Shown: in pieces, positions 19,331 to 27,753 of the stretch
How the letters are laid out: each line of letters opens with the position of its first letter
Position numbering within the stretch: position 1 is the first letter of the stretch
From: Candidatus Hydrogenedentota bacterium
GTDB taxonomy: Bacteria > Hydrogenedentota > Hydrogenedentia > Hydrogenedentales > SLHB01
Assembly: GCA_016215105.1 (NCBI GenBank)
Contig: JACRLJ010000074.1
Span: 1-42,370 of the forward strand
DNA length: 42,370 nucleotides
Reading direction: 5' to 3'
Program-made: the position numbers and the translations under genes
Notes under the pieces: generated by a model
Told to the model about the DNA's origin: nothing
The model's database searches: none
What the model saw: the letters and a program-made list of their open reading frames with translations, nothing else

Positions 19331-19474
19331 CGACGGGCGGCCCTTCTCTATTGCGCATCGAACTGTGTGCCGTGCGCCGGCTTTCTGACTCGACGCCACC
19401 GACCTGGACTAGGCGTTTCCGCCCGGGCTGTTGCGGCGAATTTAACACGTACGCTGCAAGGGAGAAATCATCGC

Positions 19475-21871
19475 ATGGACGAGGTATTGAGGCGCGAAGT
19501 GCGCTTTATAACGACGCGGCTTGGCGCGATCATCCGCGAACAGGCCGGTAACACGCCCTTGTTCACCCACATCGAACAATTACGGACGTTTGCGAAAGCA
19601 ATTCGCAGGCATCATGACCGCGCGAGCATCACTGCGAAGCGGCGGCTCGTGGCTGCCCTTAGCGTCTCTGAGGCATATCAGGTGGCGCATGCGTTCAGTT
19701 TGTTCTTTCAACTCACCAATCTGTGCGAAGAGCGCGCGCGCGTTCGCCATCTACAGGCGAATCCCGAGCCCGCGCAGTCTTTGCGACGGATGTTTGGGGA
19801 ACTGCAAGAAGCTGGGGTCAGTGCGGAGACCCTGCAACGTTGCCTCGACAGCCTCGAAATCGAGCCGGTTCTAACCGCGCATCCGACCGAAGCCAAGCGC
19901 CGCACGACGCTTAATCACATTTTCCGGCTGTCCACGCAATTCGACCACCCCGACGAAGTTCTCGAGGCCCTCTGGCAGACCGTTGAAATCCGCGAACAGC
20001 GCGTCAGACCACTCGATGAGGTAGATAACGTCATCTTTTTCTTTGAACGCACGATTCTGTCGGCGGTGGCGCGCTTTAATGCGGTGTTTGATGAGGAACT
20101 TCGATTGGCGTTTCCAAAAGTGAAGCGTTCTCGGCCGTTTCTCACCTTCGGAAGTTGGGTGGGTGGCGATCGCGATGGGCATCCGTTCGTTACGCCCGAG
20201 ATCAGCCTCGCGACCGTGGAGCGCCAGCGTTCCCGGCTACTCAGTTACTACAAGAGTGAATGTGAAGGGTTGATCAGCGAGTTGACACACGCTTCCACGT
20301 CTCGGCGCCAAAGCGCTTCGGCGTCTGATCCTTTTCAACCCGGCGAAGTCTATCGGCGGCGCCTGCTGGAAAGTCAACGAAAGTTGAAGGGCGACTATCG
20401 ACACTGGGGGGAGTTTGCACGCGATCTTGAGGCCATACAAAGCGGGTTGCGGAAACAGCATGCGCATCGGGCGGCGGACGGCCGCATTGCCGCCCTTATC
20501 TCGCAGGCAAAAACGTTTGGGTTTCACCTTGCGCAACTGGACTTCCGCGAGCACAGCGGCAAACTGACCGGGACACCGGACGATTTGCTCGGCCAGTTTC
20601 GCGCGCTCCGCGCGATCCAACGCGATCACGGCGAACATGCGGCGCATCACTTTATCGTGAGCATGACACGCAACGCAGACGACCTGACGGGGTTGCTCGC
20701 GCTGGCTCGGCGGGTCAAAGTGGGAATAGACCTTGTGCCCTTGTTTGAGACTATCGAAGACCTGGACCACGCGCCGGGGATCATGGACACGGCGTGGAAT
20801 GTCACCGACTACCGGGAGCACTTGCGGCAACGAGGCGACATCCAGGAGATCATGCTCGGCTACTCCGACTCGAACAAGGACGGCGGTTATCTTGCGGCAA
20901 ACTGGTCTCTTTACCGTGTACAGCAACGCCTCGCGGAGCTGGCCGACGCGCGCGGACTAAAGCTGCGATTCTTTCATGGCACGGGCGGCTCAATTGACCG
21001 AGGCGGCGGCATGAGCCATCGCAGCCTGCGCGCACAACCGCACGCGGCGCACGGCAGCCGGATTCGCATCACGGAGCAGGGGGAAGTCGTCTCGCTCAAG
21101 TACTCAAACCCGGTCATTGCCCAGCGCAACCTCGAGCAACTCACTAGCGCGGTGATCGCAGCCAACTGCGCGCCGGCGCCAAAAACGGAACCGGCTTGGC
21201 TCACCGCCATGGACTCCTTGGCGCACGGATCGTTTGAGTTCTATCAAGACCTCGTTTACCGGACGCCGGAGTTTCAGAAGTATTTCCGGCAGGCCACACC
21301 CATTGACCTAATTGAACACCTGCGTATTGGTTCTCGGCCGAGCCGGAGGGCGGGCGAAGGTGACGTGCGGCAGTTGCGGGCAATTCCGTGGGTGTTTGCA
21401 TGGACACAGTCGCGGCACCTCCTGAGCGCGTGGTACGGCGTTGGACACGCTCTGGAGGCGCATGGTGATGTGGAGCAGCTGCGTGAAATGTACCTCAAAT
21501 GGCCGTTCTTTGCAGTGTTGCTCGACAACGCCGAGCTTTCGCTGGCCAAGACTGACCTCTATATCGCGGGCCGGTATGCGGCTCTCGTGCGCTCTGCGCC
21601 AATACGGAAGAAAGTTTTCGGGATGATATCAGAGGAGTACGACCGCACGGTGAGAATGGTGTTGAACGTAACGCGGCGAAGCCGGTTACTCTCGAACCAG
21701 CCCGTATTGGCGGAGTCGATCCGGTTGCGTAATCCGTACATTGATCCGCTCAATTATCTGCAAATCCGGTTCCTGCCGCGCTGGCGGCGCACAAGAGAAG
21801 ACGAAAGCCTGCGCCGATTGCTTGCGTTGACGGTCAACGGCATTGCATTCGGCATGAAGAGCACCGGCTGA
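19475..21871 (+). CDS. ppc: Phosphoenolpyruvate carboxylase
   Basis: A 798-residue enzyme that adds bicarbonate to PEP to give oxaloacetate, replenishing the citric acid cycle. Landmarks in order: VLTAHPTEAKRRT with the catalytic histidine, GSWVGGDRDGHPF, LGYSDSNKDGGY, FHGTGGSIDRGGG, FAWTQSRHLLSAWYGVG, LSLAKTDL, and RLRNPYIDPLNYLQ. It is shorter than the 880-930 residues usual in bacteria. Two positions differ from the common form: the glycine loop reads HGTGGS where HGRGGS is usual, and the C terminus is KSTG instead of the usual NTG ending. Start ATG 19475 follows AAGGGAG; an earlier in-frame codon at 19367 is rejected. It is followed by sbtA and sbtB, so bicarbonate supply and use are linked. 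Confidence 0.92.
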   Translation: MDEVLRREVRFITTRLGAIIREQAGNTPLFTHIEQLRTFAKAIRRHHDRASITAKRRLVAALSVSEAYQVAHAFSLFFQLTNLCEERARVRHLQANPEPAQSLRRMFGELQEAGVSAETLQRCLDSLEIEPVLTAHPTEAKRRTTLNHIFRLSTQFDHPDEVLEALWQTVEIREQRVRPLDEVDNVIFFFERTILSAVARFNAVFDEELRLAFPKVKRSRPFLTFGSWVGGDRDGHPFVTPEISLATVERQRSRLLSYYKSECEGLISELTHASTSRRQSASASDPFQPGEVYRRRLLESQRKLKGDYRHWGEFARDLEAIQSGLRKQHAHRAADGRIAALISQAKTFGFHLAQLDFREHSGKLTGTPDDLLGQFRALRAIQRDHGEHAAHHFIVSMTRNADDLTGLLALARRVKVGIDLVPLFETIEDLDHAPGIMDTAWNVTDYREHLRQRGDIQEIMLGYSDSNKDGGYLAANWSLYRVQQRLAELADARGLKLRFFHGTGGSIDRGGGMSHRSLRAQPHAAHGSRIRITEQGEVVSLKYSNPVIAQRNLEQLTSAVIAANCAPAPKTEPAWLTAMDSLAHGSFEFYQDLVYRTPEFQKYFRQATPIDLIEHLRIGSRPSRRAGEGDVRQLRAIPWVFAWTQSRHLLSAWYGVGHALEAHGDVEQLREMYLKWPFFAVLLDNAELSLAKTDLYIAGRYAALVRSAPIRKKVFGMISEEYDRTVRMVLNVTRRSRLLSNQPVLAESIRLRNPYIDPLNYLQIRFLPRWRRTREDESLRRLLALTVNGIAFGMKSTG

Positions 21872-21979
21872 CTGCGCATCGTTCTGGCCACGTGACGGCG
21901 ATGAGGCGCAACTATCAGCGAAACTCGTGGAGTTCAAGGCGCGCATGGCGTGTGACCCCCGAAGGAAGAACAGAACTCT

Positions 21980-22981
21980 ATGAGCAGCGATCTGCTACAA
22001 GGACTGCAAGCGAACTTGCTATCACCGCCGGTATTGTTCTTCGTACTGGGATTGCTGGCGGCGGTAGTCCGCAGCGAGTTGAGATTCCCGGAAGCGCTGT
22101 ATGTCTCGTTGACAATCTATTTGCTGTGCGCGATCGGATTCAAGGGCGGCGTGGAAATTTCCGAAGTAGGGCTGAGCCAGGTGTGGTTGCCGACGCTGGC
22201 GGCAATGGCGCTGGGCGGAATGATTTCACTGTGGACGTATCCGGTCCTGCGGTTCATCGGGCGCCTTCCGTCCGCGGACGCGGCGGCAATTGCCGGTCAC
22301 TATGGCTCGGTCAGCGCGGTGACTTTCATTACGGCGACGAATTTTCTGAAGGTGCTCGCGCAACCCTACGAAGGTTACACCGCGGCGTTCCTGGCAGTAA
22401 TGGAAGCCCCGGCGATCATCGTGGCCATCGTGGTCGGCAAAATGGCGCTGCGTCGGCAGGGGCCGGCACGCGCAACTGCGGATGATAGCTTGGGCTCGGT
22501 TTTGCACGAAGCATTGCTGGGACGCAGCGTGTTCCTATTGGTGGGTACTTTGCTAACTGGATTCCTCTGTGGCAAGCGCGGGATGGACTCGGTGGCGGGG
22601 TTTCTGGTGACGCCGTTCCAGGGTGTGTTGGCGCTGTTTCTGCTGGAGCTCGGTACCGTGGCCGGGCGGCGCCTCAATGACCTGCGGAAAGTAGGCCCGT
22701 TCCTCGTGGTGTTCGGGATCGTGATGCCGCTGCTGCACGGAACCCTTGGCGTGTTGTTGGGGCACGCGGTGGGATTAAGTCTTGGCGGAACGACGTTGCT
22801 GGCGGTGTTAGCGGCGAGCGCTTCGTACATTGCCGCGCCGGCTGCGATGCGATTATCGTTACCAGACGCAAACCCGACCCTGTATCTGACTGCGGCCTTG
22901 GTAATCACATTTCCATTCAACGTGACGCTGGGAATTCCGATCTACTACGCCATTGCCAAATGGTGGACAGGAGGGCATTGA
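21980..22981 (+). CDS. sbtA: SbtA-like sodium-dependent bicarbonate transporter
   Basis: A 333-residue membrane protein with about ten hydrophobic helices and family marks (FKGGVEISEVG, AGHYGSVSAVTF, MEAPAIIVAIVVGK, FLLELGTVAGRRL, ASASYIAAPAAMR). It belongs to the SbtA family (PF05982), first known from cyanobacteria as a high-affinity Na+/bicarbonate symporter and later found in many other bacteria. GAAGGAAG precedes the ATG. It lies 108 bases after ppc, which needs bicarbonate, and its stop is 1 base before sbtB, giving a probable ppc-sbtA-sbtB operon. The transported ion is inferred from the family and context. Confidence 0.87.
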   Translation: MSSDLLQGLQANLLSPPVLFFVLGLLAAVVRSELRFPEALYVSLTIYLLCAIGFKGGVEISEVGLSQVWLPTLAAMALGGMISLWTYPVLRFIGRLPSADAAAIAGHYGSVSAVTFITATNFLKVLAQPYEGYTAAFLAVMEAPAIIVAIVVGKMALRRQGPARATADDSLGSVLHEALLGRSVFLLVGTLLTGFLCGKRGMDSVAGFLVTPFQGVLALFLLELGTVAGRRLNDLRKVGPFLVVFGIVMPLLHGTLGVLLGHAVGLSLGGTTLLAVLAASASYIAAPAAMRLSLPDANPTLYLTAALVITFPFNVTLGIPIYYAIAKWWTGGH

Positions 22982-22982
22982 C

Positions 22983-23285
22983 ATGCCAGCACATTCGATG
23001 AAACTGGTGACGATCGTTTGTGAGGCGCTGGCGCGCGATGCAGTGACGCGTTTACTGCGCGACGTTGGCGCGCACGGTTACACGCTATTTGAGGTCGAAG
23101 GGTTGGGAGCGAAAGGGCCACGTACACTCGAGATGGTCGAATTGGCGAATATCCAGATTGAGGTACTCGTGCCTCCGGCGGTGTGTGATCGGTTGATGGA
23201 CGAACTCGAAACCAGGTTCTTCCCAACGTACGCGATGATCGCTCATGAGACCGACGTTAGTGTGCGCCGACCGGACAAATTCTAG
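22983..23285 (+). CDS. sbtB: SbtB-like PII-family regulator
   Basis: A 100-residue PII-like protein. It begins MKLVTIVCEALARDAVTRLL after five residues, has GAHGYTLFEVEGLGAKG leading into the T-loop region, and NIQIEVLVPPAVCDRLMDEL plus FFPTYAMIAHETDVSV as the second half of the ferredoxin-like fold. SbtB proteins bind adenine nucleotides (including cAMP in cyanobacteria) and bind SbtA to control transport. The C terminus ends in RRPDKF and lacks the Cys-Gly-Pro-x-Gly-Cys redox tail of many cyanobacterial SbtB proteins. It starts 1 base after the sbtA stop, which strongly supports the pairing. Confidence 0.85.
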   Translation: MPAHSMKLVTIVCEALARDAVTRLLRDVGAHGYTLFEVEGLGAKGPRTLEMVELANIQIEVLVPPAVCDRLMDELETRFFPTYAMIAHETDVSVRRPDKF

Positions 23286-23377: not shown

Positions 23378-23427
23378 GACACCGCTTTTGCCCTATCAGA
23401 ATCCGCGTGCCAGGAGAACGTCTGCCC

Positions 23428-25815
23428 ATGTGTGCCCTCGCCGTCCTAATCTCCTCCTCCGTTTGCGCCGCAGTTCCCGTTCAATACTCCTTTACGCTGT
23501 GGAATTGGGACACCAATTACCGTGACATTGCTGCGTTCCGCCGAACAGTTGACGCGTGCGCGGTTCATGGCTTCACGCTCATTGAGCTCGGCGCCGCGTG
23601 GGAAGACTGCGAAAAGCAGGAAGGACAATTCGACTTCAGTATCGTCGACGAGCGCGTGGCCTACGTTACTTCCACAGGGCTGGGGCTGCGTTTGCGGCCT
23701 AACCTCTACGATTGGCCGGCCTGGTATACGCCGGAGTTGTTCACGGACGCGAAGGGAGTCGCTTTTCCCCATTGCGGCGGGTACCCGAGCGTGTTCAACG
23801 CCGAGAATCGCAAGCGGCAATACCGGCTTTCTGGGGAACTCGCGAAGCACTGCGCCGGACATGGGTACACCTACAGTCCGGGCTTCAGCGTACACATGGA
23901 GGTCAAGTTTGCCGATTGGATCAGCTATGAGCCGTCGGCGCGCGCGGCGTTTCGCGCCTGGCTTGCCGGACGCTATGGGACGGTCGAGGCGCTCAACGCT
24001 GCGTGGAAAACGGCGCTAGCGTCTTTTCAAGAAATCGAGCCGCCCGTGCCGGCCGATACGGCGGGAAGTCCCTCGCTCGATGAACAGTCCAACGACTGGA
24101 TACGGTTTCGCGAGTTCGCGTTGGCGGATTGGGTCGCGGGCTTCGCCGCCGAAGTGCGGCTCAACGATCCCAGCGCCAGGATTTCCGTGCCGCTCGGCGA
24201 GAGTTACCGCCGGGAGTCGGCGCGCATGGCCAATCTGGGCTATTGGGCCTATTCGCGCCCGGCTGACGAGGTAGTACACTCCTACGACTTCTTCTGGCAC
24301 GGCAAGAACGGGCTCGAGAATAGCATGGCGTCGGTGGCGGCCTTCATCGGAATTACCCAGCGCCCGTCAATTCTCGAAGTGGACGGTCCGACTCTACTCG
24401 ACCAGTTCGGCTACACTCCCGCGGACCTGGTCCGTGTGGCGCGGTTCGCCCTCGAAGCCGGCGCGGCCGGAATCCAAGTTTCAAACTGGGGAGGGATCGA
24501 CGTCACGCAGTGGCCCTTCCTTTCCGAAGTTGGGGCGCTGGTCCGTGAGCGCCGCGCGCAAGGAGATTGGGAACTGCCCATGCCGTGTCCGACCTTGTAC
24601 TATGTCTCGAAATGGCAGAACTACGTTTATCGCGAGCCGTCGGAATGGGTTCATGACCGTCAATTCGGGTATTGGCTGACGCTACATCGAGCCGGCATTC
24701 CCGCGCGCATTGTGACCGACGAAAACCTGCTTAAGGAAGACTTGCGTGCGCAGACCATGGTCATTCCGTGCGGCGCTGTTATCGATGCGCCCGTGCGGGA
24801 CCGTCTTCGGGCTTTGTCCAATGGCATGCGAATCGTCGCGGACGATATCCCCGGTTTGTTCACCACCTCTCAGAAGACCGAAGGCCAGTTTGGCGCAAAG
24901 GTCGAGGTCTTGGATCGCCCGTTCGCGGAGGAGAAGCGCGCTCCCGCGGAGCTACTGGCCGCGTCTGACAAGGACGTCCAAACGCTGCGTGTGGCGGCCG
25001 TCCAGTTCCTGACCTCATTCGACGTGGCATCAAACGCGGCCAAGATCGTGGGATACATCCGCCAGGCTGCGGATCAGGGCGCGAAGGTGGTGGTGTTTCC
25101 CGAGATGGCGCTTACGGGCTACAGCAAGGCCGCTGACGCCTACGCCACTCTCGATTGGAAGACGGTCGAGGCGGGGCTAAGCGGCATCCGAAAGGCTTGC
25201 CAAGACCGCAAGGTCTACGCAATCGTCGGCGCCCCGATTCGGGATGGCGATGCCTGGTACTGCGCAGCGCTGGCTATCAATCCCGCGGGGGACATCATCG
25301 ACGCCTACGAGAAGACCTATCTCGCGGGAGAGGCCTGGGCAAAACCGGGCCGAAAGTTCACGACGTTCGACATCGAGGGCATTACCTGCGCCACGATCAT
25401 TTGCCATGATGAACGCTACGGGCCGTTGGTGCAGCTTCGCGCGCTTCGCGGCGCGCAATTGTTCTTCTACATCTCCTGTGAATCCGGCGCAAGCGCCGAG
25501 AACAAGCTCGGACCGTACCGGGCGCAGGTCCAAGCGCGCGCGGTCGAAAACAAAGTCTACGTGGTCCACGCCAATACTCCCGCGAACGCCGCGAATCCGC
25601 AAGATCCCGCCGCCTCCCACGGTGAGAGTCGTATCGTGGCGCCGGACGGCAATCTCATCACGGAGGCGCCCAGGTACGATGACGCCGTAGTCTACGCTGA
25701 CCTGAATCTGCGGCGTACGCCTCCGCGCCCAGGGAAAGCGGTAACCGAGGGACCTTTGGCCGCGTGGATGCAGCAGGGGCTTGACTTGGTAAACAGCCCC
25801 GGCAAAACGCCATAG
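23428..25815 (+). CDS. Secreted GH42-like glycosidase fused to a nitrilase-family amidase
   Basis: A 795-residue two-domain protein with an N-terminal signal-like segment (MCALAVLISSSVCAA). Residues about 20-390 resemble a GH42 beta-galactosidase barrel: FTLWNWDTNY, CEKQEGQFDF, RPNLYDWPAWY, and YEPSARAAFRAWLAGRYGT; E158 (HMEV) and E317 (ILEVDGP) are the likely acid/base and nucleophile. Residues about 395-515 form a glutamine-amidotransferase-like linker region. Residues about 525-775 are a carbon-nitrogen hydrolase with triad E559 (FPEMALTGYS), K629 (YEKTYLAG) and C659 (IICHDERYG). The protein should act outside the cytoplasm on a glycan-linked amide or on two successive bonds, but no substrate is known. 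Start: ATG 23428 with AGGAG at 23412-23416; GTG 23407 is less likely. Both active sites look intact. Confidence 0.8.
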   Translation: MCALAVLISSSVCAAVPVQYSFTLWNWDTNYRDIAAFRRTVDACAVHGFTLIELGAAWEDCEKQEGQFDFSIVDERVAYVTSTGLGLRLRPNLYDWPAWYTPELFTDAKGVAFPHCGGYPSVFNAENRKRQYRLSGELAKHCAGHGYTYSPGFSVHMEVKFADWISYEPSARAAFRAWLAGRYGTVEALNAAWKTALASFQEIEPPVPADTAGSPSLDEQSNDWIRFREFALADWVAGFAAEVRLNDPSARISVPLGESYRRESARMANLGYWAYSRPADEVVHSYDFFWHGKNGLENSMASVAAFIGITQRPSILEVDGPTLLDQFGYTPADLVRVARFALEAGAAGIQVSNWGGIDVTQWPFLSEVGALVRERRAQGDWELPMPCPTLYYVSKWQNYVYREPSEWVHDRQFGYWLTLHRAGIPARIVTDENLLKEDLRAQTMVIPCGAVIDAPVRDRLRALSNGMRIVADDIPGLFTTSQKTEGQFGAKVEVLDRPFAEEKRAPAELLAASDKDVQTLRVAAVQFLTSFDVASNAAKIVGYIRQAADQGAKVVVFPEMALTGYSKAADAYATLDWKTVEAGLSGIRKACQDRKVYAIVGAPIRDGDAWYCAALAINPAGDIIDAYEKTYLAGEAWAKPGRKFTTFDIEGITCATIICHDERYGPLVQLRALRGAQLFFYISCESGASAENKLGPYRAQVQARAVENKVYVVHANTPANAANPQDPAASHGESRIVAPDGNLITEAPRYDDAVVYADLNLRRTPPRPGKAVTEGPLAAWMQQGLDLVNSPGKTP

Positions 25816-25884: not shown

Positions 25885-25909
25885 ACGCGCCAATCGGATA
25901 CGAGGGGAT

Positions 25910-26755
25910 ATGCGCACACTTATATTAGGTTCAAAGGGCCAACTGGGTCGAGAGCTGCTGCGGGTCTTTGCCGTGGATGGCCCGGCTCAGGGCGTGGATC
26001 TGCCTGAACTGGATATCTCCAACGCGGTGGCCGTGGCGCGGCTCTTGGATGGCGCTGCGCCCGACCTCATCATCAATGCCGCCGCGTACACGAATGTCGA
26101 AGCCGCCGAGGAGGATCGCGAGGCCGCGTTTCGGGCCAACGAGGACGGCGCCCGGCACGTGGCCGAGGCGGCGTCAATCCGCAAGGTCCCCGTCGTCTAT
26201 TACAGCACCGACTATGTGTTTGGCGGCTCAAAGACCACGCCCTACGAGCCGCAAGACGCCATTTCGCCAATAGGGGTCTACGCCAAGTCCAAGGCCGCCG
26301 GGGAAAAGGCCACGGTCGGCGCGAACCCTAGGCATTTCATTATTCGCACTGCATGGCTCTACGGTCCCGGCGGCAACAATTTCGTCGAAAAGATTCTGCG
26401 CGCGGCCGGGACACGGCCGGAATTGCGCGTGGTGTCAGACGAGGTAGGTTCGCCGACCCATACCGAGGACTTGGCTCAAGCAACACGCGCATTGTGCAAG
26501 ACCGTCGCCTTCGGGGTATACCACGCAGTCAACGAGGGTTCCTGTTCGCGCTTCGAGTTTGCCCAGGCCATTTTGAGCCTGGCGGGTGTTAAAACGCCGG
26601 TAAAGCCGTGCATGTCGTCGGAATTTCCTACCAAGGCCGAGAGGCCCCTCTACTCCGTGTTGTCCAACGCGAAACTCGAGCGGGTGTGTGGCCACCGTAT
26701 GCGTCCCTGGAAAGCGGCGCTCGAACGTTACTTGCAGCGAAGGGAGAACTCCTAA
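25910..26755 (+). CDS. rmlD: dTDP-4-dehydrorhamnose reductase RmlD
   Basis: A 281-residue extended SDR that reduces dTDP-4-keto-L-rhamnose to dTDP-L-rhamnose, the last step of rhamnose donor synthesis. It has the nucleotide site ILGSKGQLGRELL (GxxGxxG), LDISNA, PDLIINAAAYTNVEAAE, STDYVFGG, catalytic YAKSK with tyrosine and lysine, and the RTAWLYGPGGNNFV and SDEVGSPTHTEDLA blocks of RmlD. Start ATG 25910 (GAGGGGAT just upstream), not the in-frame codon at 25856 inside the promoter. Its stop overlaps the rmlB start by one base (TAATG), so both are translated from one message. RmlC and RmlA are not here, so the pathway must be completed elsewhere. Confidence 0.92.
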   Translation: MRTLILGSKGQLGRELLRVFAVDGPAQGVDLPELDISNAVAVARLLDGAAPDLIINAAAYTNVEAAEEDREAAFRANEDGARHVAEAASIRKVPVVYYSTDYVFGGSKTTPYEPQDAISPIGVYAKSKAAGEKATVGANPRHFIIRTAWLYGPGGNNFVEKILRAAGTRPELRVVSDEVGSPTHTEDLAQATRALCKTVAFGVYHAVNEGSCSRFEFAQAILSLAGVKTPVKPCMSSEFPTKAERPLYSVLSNAKLERVCGHRMRPWKAALERYLQRRENS

Positions 26756-27753
26756 TGAAGCGAATCATGGTCACCGGCGGAGCGGGATTCATCGGCTCTG
26801 CGTTCGTGCGCTACCAGTTGCGAACCTATCCTGACGTCCATATCGTCAACTTCGACAAACTAACCTACGCCGGAAACCTGAACAACGTCAAAGGGGTCGA
26901 CGAAACAAGGCATACCTTTGTGCGCGGTGACATCGCCGACGCCGAGGCTGTCATGTCGGCCATGAAGGATTGCGACGCCGTAGTCAATTTCGCCGCCGAG
27001 ACCCACGTGGATCGAAGCATCATGGCCGCCGCAGACTTCATCGACACCGACGTTCGCGGCGTGCATAACATCGTCGAGGCCGCCAAGGCGCTGGGAACCA
27101 AGCGGGTCTTGCTGGTTTCGACAGATGAAGTCTATGGAAGTATCGCGAAAGGCTCGTTCAAGGAAACGGACCCCATGGGGCCGCGCAATCCGTATTCCGC
27201 CAGCAAGGCCGGCGGCGAACTGCTGGCGATGGCCTATTTCCACACGCACAACGTCCCCGTGATTATCACGCGGGGCTCGAACACCTACGGCCCATATCAA
27301 TACCCGGAGAAGGTTCTGCCGCTCTTTGTTACGAACGCGATAGACAACCAGCCGCTTCCACTCTATGGCGATGGGAAGAATGTCCGCGATTGGCTCTATG
27401 TGGACGATCACTGCACCGGAATCGACTGTGCGCTGCGCCACGGCGAACCGGGACAGATATACAACGTTGCCGGTGAAAACGAACGGGAAAACATTGTCTT
27501 GACGCGGCGTATTCTTGAGCTCACGGGCCGTGGCAAGGAACTGATCAAGCCCATTACGGACCGTCCGGGCCATGATCGGCGTTATTCGATCGATGCGTCG
27601 AAACTGAAGGCCCTGGGATGGCGGGCCGCGATGGAATGGGATACCGGTATCGCATCCACCGTCCGCTGGTACAAGGAAAACGAGTGGTGGTGGCGCCCCA
27701 TCAAGACCGGCGAGTTCCTTGAGTACTACAAACGGCAGTACGATAACCGATAA
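26755..27753 (+). CDS. rmlB: dTDP-glucose 4,6-dehydratase RmlB
   Basis: A 332-residue extended SDR that turns dTDP-glucose into dTDP-4-keto-6-deoxyglucose, the step before RmlC/RmlD. It has the NAD site TGGAGFIGSAFVR, FDKLTYAGNLNNV, FAAETHVDRSI, STDEVYGS, the catalytic YSASK, and GSNTYGPYQYPEKVLP, NVRDWLYVDDH and GHDRRYSID, all characteristic. Length is normal. It begins on the last base of the rmlD stop and has AAGGGAGAA upstream. Together the two genes point to deoxysugar donors for lipopolysaccharide, surface polysaccharide or protein glycosylation. A new promoter follows 18 bases after the stop. Confidence 0.95.
   Translation: MKRIMVTGGAGFIGSAFVRYQLRTYPDVHIVNFDKLTYAGNLNNVKGVDETRHTFVRGDIADAEAVMSAMKDCDAVVNFAAETHVDRSIMAAADFIDTDVRGVHNIVEAAKALGTKRVLLVSTDEVYGSIAKGSFKETDPMGPRNPYSASKAGGELLAMAYFHTHNVPVIITRGSNTYGPYQYPEKVLPLFVTNAIDNQPLPLYGDGKNVRDWLYVDDHCTGIDCALRHGEPGQIYNVAGENERENIVLTRRILELTGRGKELIKPITDRPGHDRRYSIDASKLKALGWRAAMEWDTGIASTVRWYKENEWWWRPIKTGEFLEYYKRQYDNR

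Follow-up and report, generated by a model that had tools for sequence, protein, structure and literature searches.

A GH42-like barrel joined to a nitrilase-superfamily domain in Candidatus Hydrogenedentota: a possible exported enzyme of glycan breakdown

What might a bacterium do with one polypeptide that joins a glycosidase-like barrel to a domain of the nitrilase superfamily? The question is raised by a gene in a 6.7-Mb, 171-contig Candidatus Hydrogenedentota genome, within a stretch of 42,370 nucleotides that was analysed as a whole and is here called the window. The gene lies at positions 23428..25815 of the forward strand. An uninterrupted reading frame runs to 25815 from either of two starts, GTG 23407 (802 aa) or ATG 23428 (795 aa), and we favour the ATG because a Shine-Dalgarno-like AGGAGA, read from the sequence at 23412..23417 (+), sits between the two, 10 nt 5' of the ATG. 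Pfam matches to both halves within this open frame bear out the preliminary description of the gene as a single-polypeptide fusion of a glycosidase-like and a nitrilase-type part. The same domain order was sought in other genomes and found in seven, the source included. An Rfam scan of the window gave no match.

Residues 1-18 (23428..23481, +) form the signal-like segment that had been described, and the N-terminal stretch is hydrophobic in 7/7 fusions (best 12-mer Kyte-Doolittle value 1.96-2.96). Judging by this segment, the fusion protein is probably exported. The companion claim that exported nitrilase-family domains are unusual needs to be narrowed, since several Hydrogenedentota nitrilases, tandem ones included, also have hydrophobic N-termini. 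An unfused nitrilase at L142 (genome G348) has no obvious signal.

The GH42-like half

The structure prediction that had been proposed for this protein yielded models that match domains A and B of GH42 and the nitrilase fold. The AF2 model of the fusion protein, built from 8 sequences (mean pLDDT 76.1, pTM 0.72), shows a barrel and a nitrilase fold with a middle part between them. The GH42-like TIM barrel spans residues 19-378 (23482..24561, +) and is delimited by Pfam (Glyco_hydro_42, residues 37-294, 1.7e-21, 77.5 bits, cut-off 21), by the AF2 model and by a PDB match. In that match, model residues 15..513 align with residues 17..621 of 4uzs, which belongs to GH42 (474 residues at rmsd 3.6, Z 26.2), and are thereby predicted to adopt the barrel plus domain B fold of GH42. 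The stretch from about residue 380 to 500 had been described as a linker; it is instead predicted to be a folded GH42 domain B, included in the match to 4uzs domains A and B. This domain-B-like segment comprises residues 381-500 (24568..24927, +), where a profile match to 4ucf also runs through the domain-B region. In the model, the nitrilase domain stands where the C-terminal part of a GH42 enzyme would be.

GH42 beta-galactosidases (PF02449; 4uzs, 4ucf, 4uni, 1kwg) therefore share a TIM barrel and domain B with the fusion, but the fusion has 18% identity to them and carries a nitrilase domain after domain B. Related barrels are also found in the GH164 beta-mannosidase 6t7g, GH35, GH14 and the beta-1,2-glucosyltransferase 7vkw, at 8-14% identity. 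Of these, 6t7g and 7vkw align over most of an unfused GH relative (Z 23-25), and GH164 was absent among the sequence-profile matches to solved structures. Kinship with GH14 beta-amylases was considered and set aside, as the Pfam and PDB matches lie mostly past the catalytic region and say little on catalysis.

Two regions of the barrel are candidates for catalysis: E158-V-K160 (23899..23907, +) as the acid/base region and E317-V-D319 (24376..24384, +), at the end of strand 7, as the nucleophile region. E158, K160, E317 and D319 are all invariant, in 7/7 fusions and in 14/14 alignment rows of the GH family, as are many further polar barrel residues in the 14 rows. The preliminary description had named E158 and E317 as the catalytic glutamates. 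Both are present and invariant, but the methods disagree on whether these residues or K160/D319 are the equivalents of the GH42 pair. HMMER with a GH42 profile equates E158 with the acid/base Glu, in agreement with the 4ucf profile match, whereas hhalign and MAFFT place K160 there as an alternative register; for the nucleophile, MAFFT and the 4ucf profile match place D319, not E317, on the GH42 Glu, and E317 lies within the same DSSP strand (314-319). Around the first region, pLDDT in the two AF2 models is near 50-65. We take E158/E317 as a reasonable candidate assignment of the catalytic pair.

The K160 and D319 registers, together with the Met or Ala that stands in place of the GH42 Asn before E158 in the rows shown, fused and unfused alike, raise the alternative that this half is no longer a glycosidase and that the barrel helps an exported amidase to bind sugar or to oligomerise, K160/D319 having replaced the catalytic pair. 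We regard this as unlikely: the HMMER and 4ucf placements of E158 argue against it, and invariance of E158, E317 and so many other polar residues is not what would be expected of a dead barrel.

Membership in GH42, which the label "GH42-type" had implied, did not hold up. On the GH-family tree, a clade of 17 rows stands separate from the 5 rows of GH42 type (100/100; the outgroup is small and long-branched), and the Asn-Glu acid/base motif is missing. Against Glyco_hydro_42 (cut-off 21), the unfused relative L020 scores only 23.6 bits. The GH-like half probably represents a new GH42-like family, outside GH42 proper. A 14-row profile of this family, with 4 candidates scored per genome, matched in 18/386 genomes, all 18 of them among the 68 Hydrogenedentota genomes; by the phylum total, about 318 of those searched are non-Hydrogenedentota. 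Seven of the 18 carry the fusion; in the others the match is an unfused frame, some 570-670 aa long, or a piece at a contig edge. On the tree the unfused members group together (99/100), whereas the fused rows do so in 32% of bootstrap trees; the unfused members may have lost the nitrilase domain from a fused ancestor.

The nitrilase half and its relatives

The nitrilase-superfamily domain covers residues 517-768 (24976..25731, +), with a Pfam CN_hydrolase match over residues 521-763 (9.5e-34, 117.3 bits, cut-off 23.2) and fold matches of Z 25-28 to amidases and nitrilases. The predicted alpha-beta-beta-alpha fold was recovered with 8uxu (Z 27.8, 246 aligned, rmsd 2.7) and 5jqn (Z 27.3, 223 aligned, rmsd 2.3), and amidases and Nit2-type enzymes make up most of the best matches among solved proteins. 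The E559-K629-C659 triad of the preliminary description stands at the right positions and is invariant in 7/7 fusions, as is E635, the expected second catalytic Glu. These putative catalytic residues, E559 (25102..25104), K629 (25312..25314), E635 (25330..25332) and the nucleophile C659 (25402..25404) in a CHDER motif, all on the forward strand, are each invariant in 12/12 fused and unfused relatives. With all putative catalytic residues of the barrel and of the nitrilase domain retained in the fusions, both halves appear to have been kept.

The fusion shares its fold (Z 25-27), E-K-E-C residues and CxDxR motif with superfamily amidases (Nit2, 2w1v; Nesterenkonia amidase, 5jqn; Pyrococcus PH0642, 1j31/6ypa; N-carbamoylputrescine amidase, 5h8i). 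In contrast to them, it has an attached glycosidase-like barrel and is probably exported, and its identity to them is 20-25%. NitFhit (1ems) and glutamine-dependent NAD synthetase are also nitrilase-domain fusions, but there the domain is joined to a nucleotide enzyme, and neither is known as a secreted enzyme acting on glycans. Against the NCBIfam equivalog models for aguB, Lnt, formamidase, de-GSH amidase, nitrilase and NAD synthase, the protein stays below every cut-off (best 72.4 bits versus 410.25).

The closest relatives are unfused, exported-type nitrilases of Hydrogenedentota, either single (L023) or tandem (L025-L027, L031, L033), with 33-44% identity over the domain. Their catalytic residues are as in the fusion, but they have no glycosidase domain, and several adjoin glycan-degradation genes. 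The fused nitrilase domains form one clade (100/99), to which the single unfused L023 and L030 are nearest, at a weak 88/83, and the tandem ones next. Nitrilases that are tandem or of tandem size (about 560-650 aa) were seen at L025, L026, L027, L031, L033, L115:2401-4116 and L116:6139-7836; their N-termini are hydrophobic in those checked, and they often lie beside polysaccharide-degradation genes. The fusion's own genome encodes, at L003, a separate protein homologous to the second domain of the tandem nitrilases.

A search of 386 genomes for the nitrilase at E <= 1e-60, a threshold that weaker ones such as L035-L038 do not reach, returned 23 matches. Seven of these are the fusions; of the 16 unfused ones, four lie in three genomes outside Hydrogenedentota. 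At this threshold, a carbohydrate-polymer gene adjoins 9/16 unfused nitrilases, seven on the same strand and two convergent, if BNR proteins are taken as carbohydrate-related. The same-strand neighbours are a PL11 rhamnogalacturonan lyase 13 bp downstream (G043, L062), a GH127 gene 46 bp upstream with a pectate-lyase-like beta-helix 18 bp downstream (G056, L116), a beta-helix (G064, L115), a sulfatase (G007, L060), a 3-keto-disaccharide hydrolase (G062, L113), a BNR_2 plus laminin-G (LamG) protein (G038, L058) and a GH29 fucosidase (G347, L143). The convergent ones are BNR_4 (G066, L059) and a sulfatase (G106, L144). The L116 genes form a tight same-strand cluster in the order GH127, nitrilase, pectate-lyase-like beta-helix (L116:4777-10702). 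The other seven unfused nitrilases (G042, G031, G060, G030, G067 and both G348 loci) have no such neighbour, some of them with a short flank or an adjoining ORF without a Pfam match. The control was a joint scan of 77 ORFs lying farther out at the loci of the unfused nitrilases, some of them perhaps spurious: the 25 families listed, of 115, include a single sulfatase and neither GH nor PL genes. Glycan genes are thus likely enriched beside the unfused nitrilases, and because 9/16 of these relatives adjoin polysaccharide-degradation genes, a link of the exported nitrilases to glycan breakdown is indirectly supported. Sugar-esterase-type genes lie beside 2/8 unfused GH relatives, a CE15 glucuronyl esterase in G030 and an AXE1/abhydrolase protein in G058.

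The fused gene itself has no carbohydrate-degradation neighbour in any of five long-flank loci (0/5) and no conserved operon, which weakens the glycan reading. Its neighbours in the window are a P-II-like gene and RmlD, and those at L046-L049 are peptidase S15, DegT, OmpH, NifU, D-arabinono-lactone oxidase and unknowns. One neighbour recurs, a large protein (L046:5916-8531, L048:11933-14965, L049:4729-8394) that is missing at the window and for which the one copy scanned had no Pfam family above cut-off. An ORF at L013 looks similar to this protein. In the loci read, no GH-only gene stood next to a nitrilase-only gene.

Further features of these loci were recorded in passing. Directly after the fusion gene, at 25904-27750, come RmlD and a dTDP-glucose-dehydratase-like gene, which are not kept at other fused loci. 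Before it, at 19367-23285, PEP carboxylase is followed by a Na+/bicarbonate transporter of SbtA type (Sbt_1 in Pfam, 389 bits), which the P-II-family gene (63.6 bits) overlaps in an SbtA/SbtB-like pair. Elsewhere, a protein with an N,N-dimethylformamidase beta-subunit-like C-terminal domain (L063:15-1364, G031) adjoins an exported-type nitrilase, and a protein of 1120 aa that carries both NPCBM and the hydrazine-synthase-alpha middle domain (L057:6284-9643, G059) adjoins an unfused GH relative.

Function and substrate

We propose, at what we judge to be even chances, that the fusion is an exported enzyme whose two domains serve glycan breakdown. The GH42-like barrel and domain B would bind a glycan and cleave a glycosidic bond, and the nitrilase-type domain would hydrolyse a C-N bond on the same or a neighbouring residue through Cys acyl-enzyme chemistry at E559, K629 and C659, with E635. 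Export, catalysis by both halves and a shared substrate are all inferred here. The most likely class of substrate is an amide-bearing glycan. Primary-amide hydrolysis is a common chemistry of the nitrilase superfamily. Of the candidate bonds we favour a sugar carboxamide (uronamide), which fits both the CxDxR motif, as this is amidase-like, and the uronic acids in the context of some relatives; it is one candidate among several and holds a low probability, and N-acetyl sugars and glycopeptides are possible as well. Uronamides are reported to occur in bacterial surface glycans, with WbpS and WbqG tied to their making (PMC7468200), and to arise in ammonia-treated xylan (PMC5414315).

A true nitrilase acting on cyanogenic glycosides, in which the sugar would be cut and the nitrile then hydrolysed, was also considered. 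The CxDxR motif and the best profile scores are amidase-type, and nitrilase models score lower or match in part, but fold matches of the model to nitrilases are as high as those to amidases, so such a reading may yet hold.

The fused gene's lack of a surrounding glycan locus is compatible with a different account, by which both halves are active on unrelated substrates and the fusion co-exports two scavenging enzymes that yield sugar and, from small amides, ammonia. The phylum's tandem nitrilases, which have hydrophobic N-termini without any glycosidase, fit this account too. Two observations speak against it: unfused relatives lie close to glycan genes, and seven genomes have kept the fusion. 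We hold it to be rather improbable. A more specific form of the glycan-breakdown proposal is likewise doubtful: a phylum-restricted new GH family with a re-built active site (E158-x-K160, E317-x-D319), joined to a glycan-dedicated nitrilase, would strip the carboxamide from a uronamide and cut off the sugar. Under that reading, the nitrilases of exported type that lie next to PL11, GH127, GH29 and sulfatase genes would make up a class of carbohydrate amidases so far unrecognised.

It is very unlikely that the nitrilase half instead works on a sugar as an acyl- or amide-forming transferase, in the manner of Lnt or the glutaminase domains of NAD synthase. Weak profile matches to Lnt and NAD synthase exist at 51 and 67 bits, far below the cut-offs of 132.9 and 479, and beyond these we found nothing in favour of the acyl transfer that had been suggested; the protein has neither a membrane domain nor an ATP-dependent partner domain, and the best solved matches are mostly amide hydrolases.

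Distribution and meaning of the fusion

Full-length fusions (at least 779/795 residues) occur in 7/68 Hydrogenedentota genomes, the source included, and the other six are 53-58% identical to it, each in one open frame. The fusion is confined to the source's family, with 7/25 genomes there and 0/43 elsewhere in the phylum. In a scan of named loci, with search patterns taken from the GH half only, the nearest named relatives of the gene were metagenome-assembled Candidatus Hydrogenedentota in 7/7 loci. The fusion was not found in viral contigs or on plasmids, where 0/375 matching records cover 80% of the query. A missed stop or frame join, which had been named as a possible flaw, was checked for and ruled out by the seven stop-free, full-length homologues with the same boundary. 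With these in seven separate genomes, and with the named loci of a second collection also matching the gene, a gene-joining or assembly artefact can be dismissed for practical purposes.

Purifying selection acts on the fusion and neither half seems to be decaying. For L010 and L011, the only pair with dS < 1 in both halves (the others being saturated or near saturation), dN/dS is 0.079 for the barrel, 0.208 for the middle part and 0.049 for the nitrilase domain.

Both halves belong to known superfamilies and the architecture is new. To our knowledge, nitrilase-superfamily enzymes are not counted among carbohydrate-active enzymes. In the portion of the open-licence PMC literature consulted, no description of a GH-nitrilase fusion or of nitrilases in glycan loci was found, and the main text of a Hydrogenedentota genome paper mentions neither nitrilase nor glycoside hydrolase (PMC10866078).

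If the proposed function is true, the fusion would add an amide-removing step to glycan breakdown. The unfused nitrilases near glycan genes provide a ready set of further candidates, and uronamide degradation would be directly testable with the fusion enzyme.
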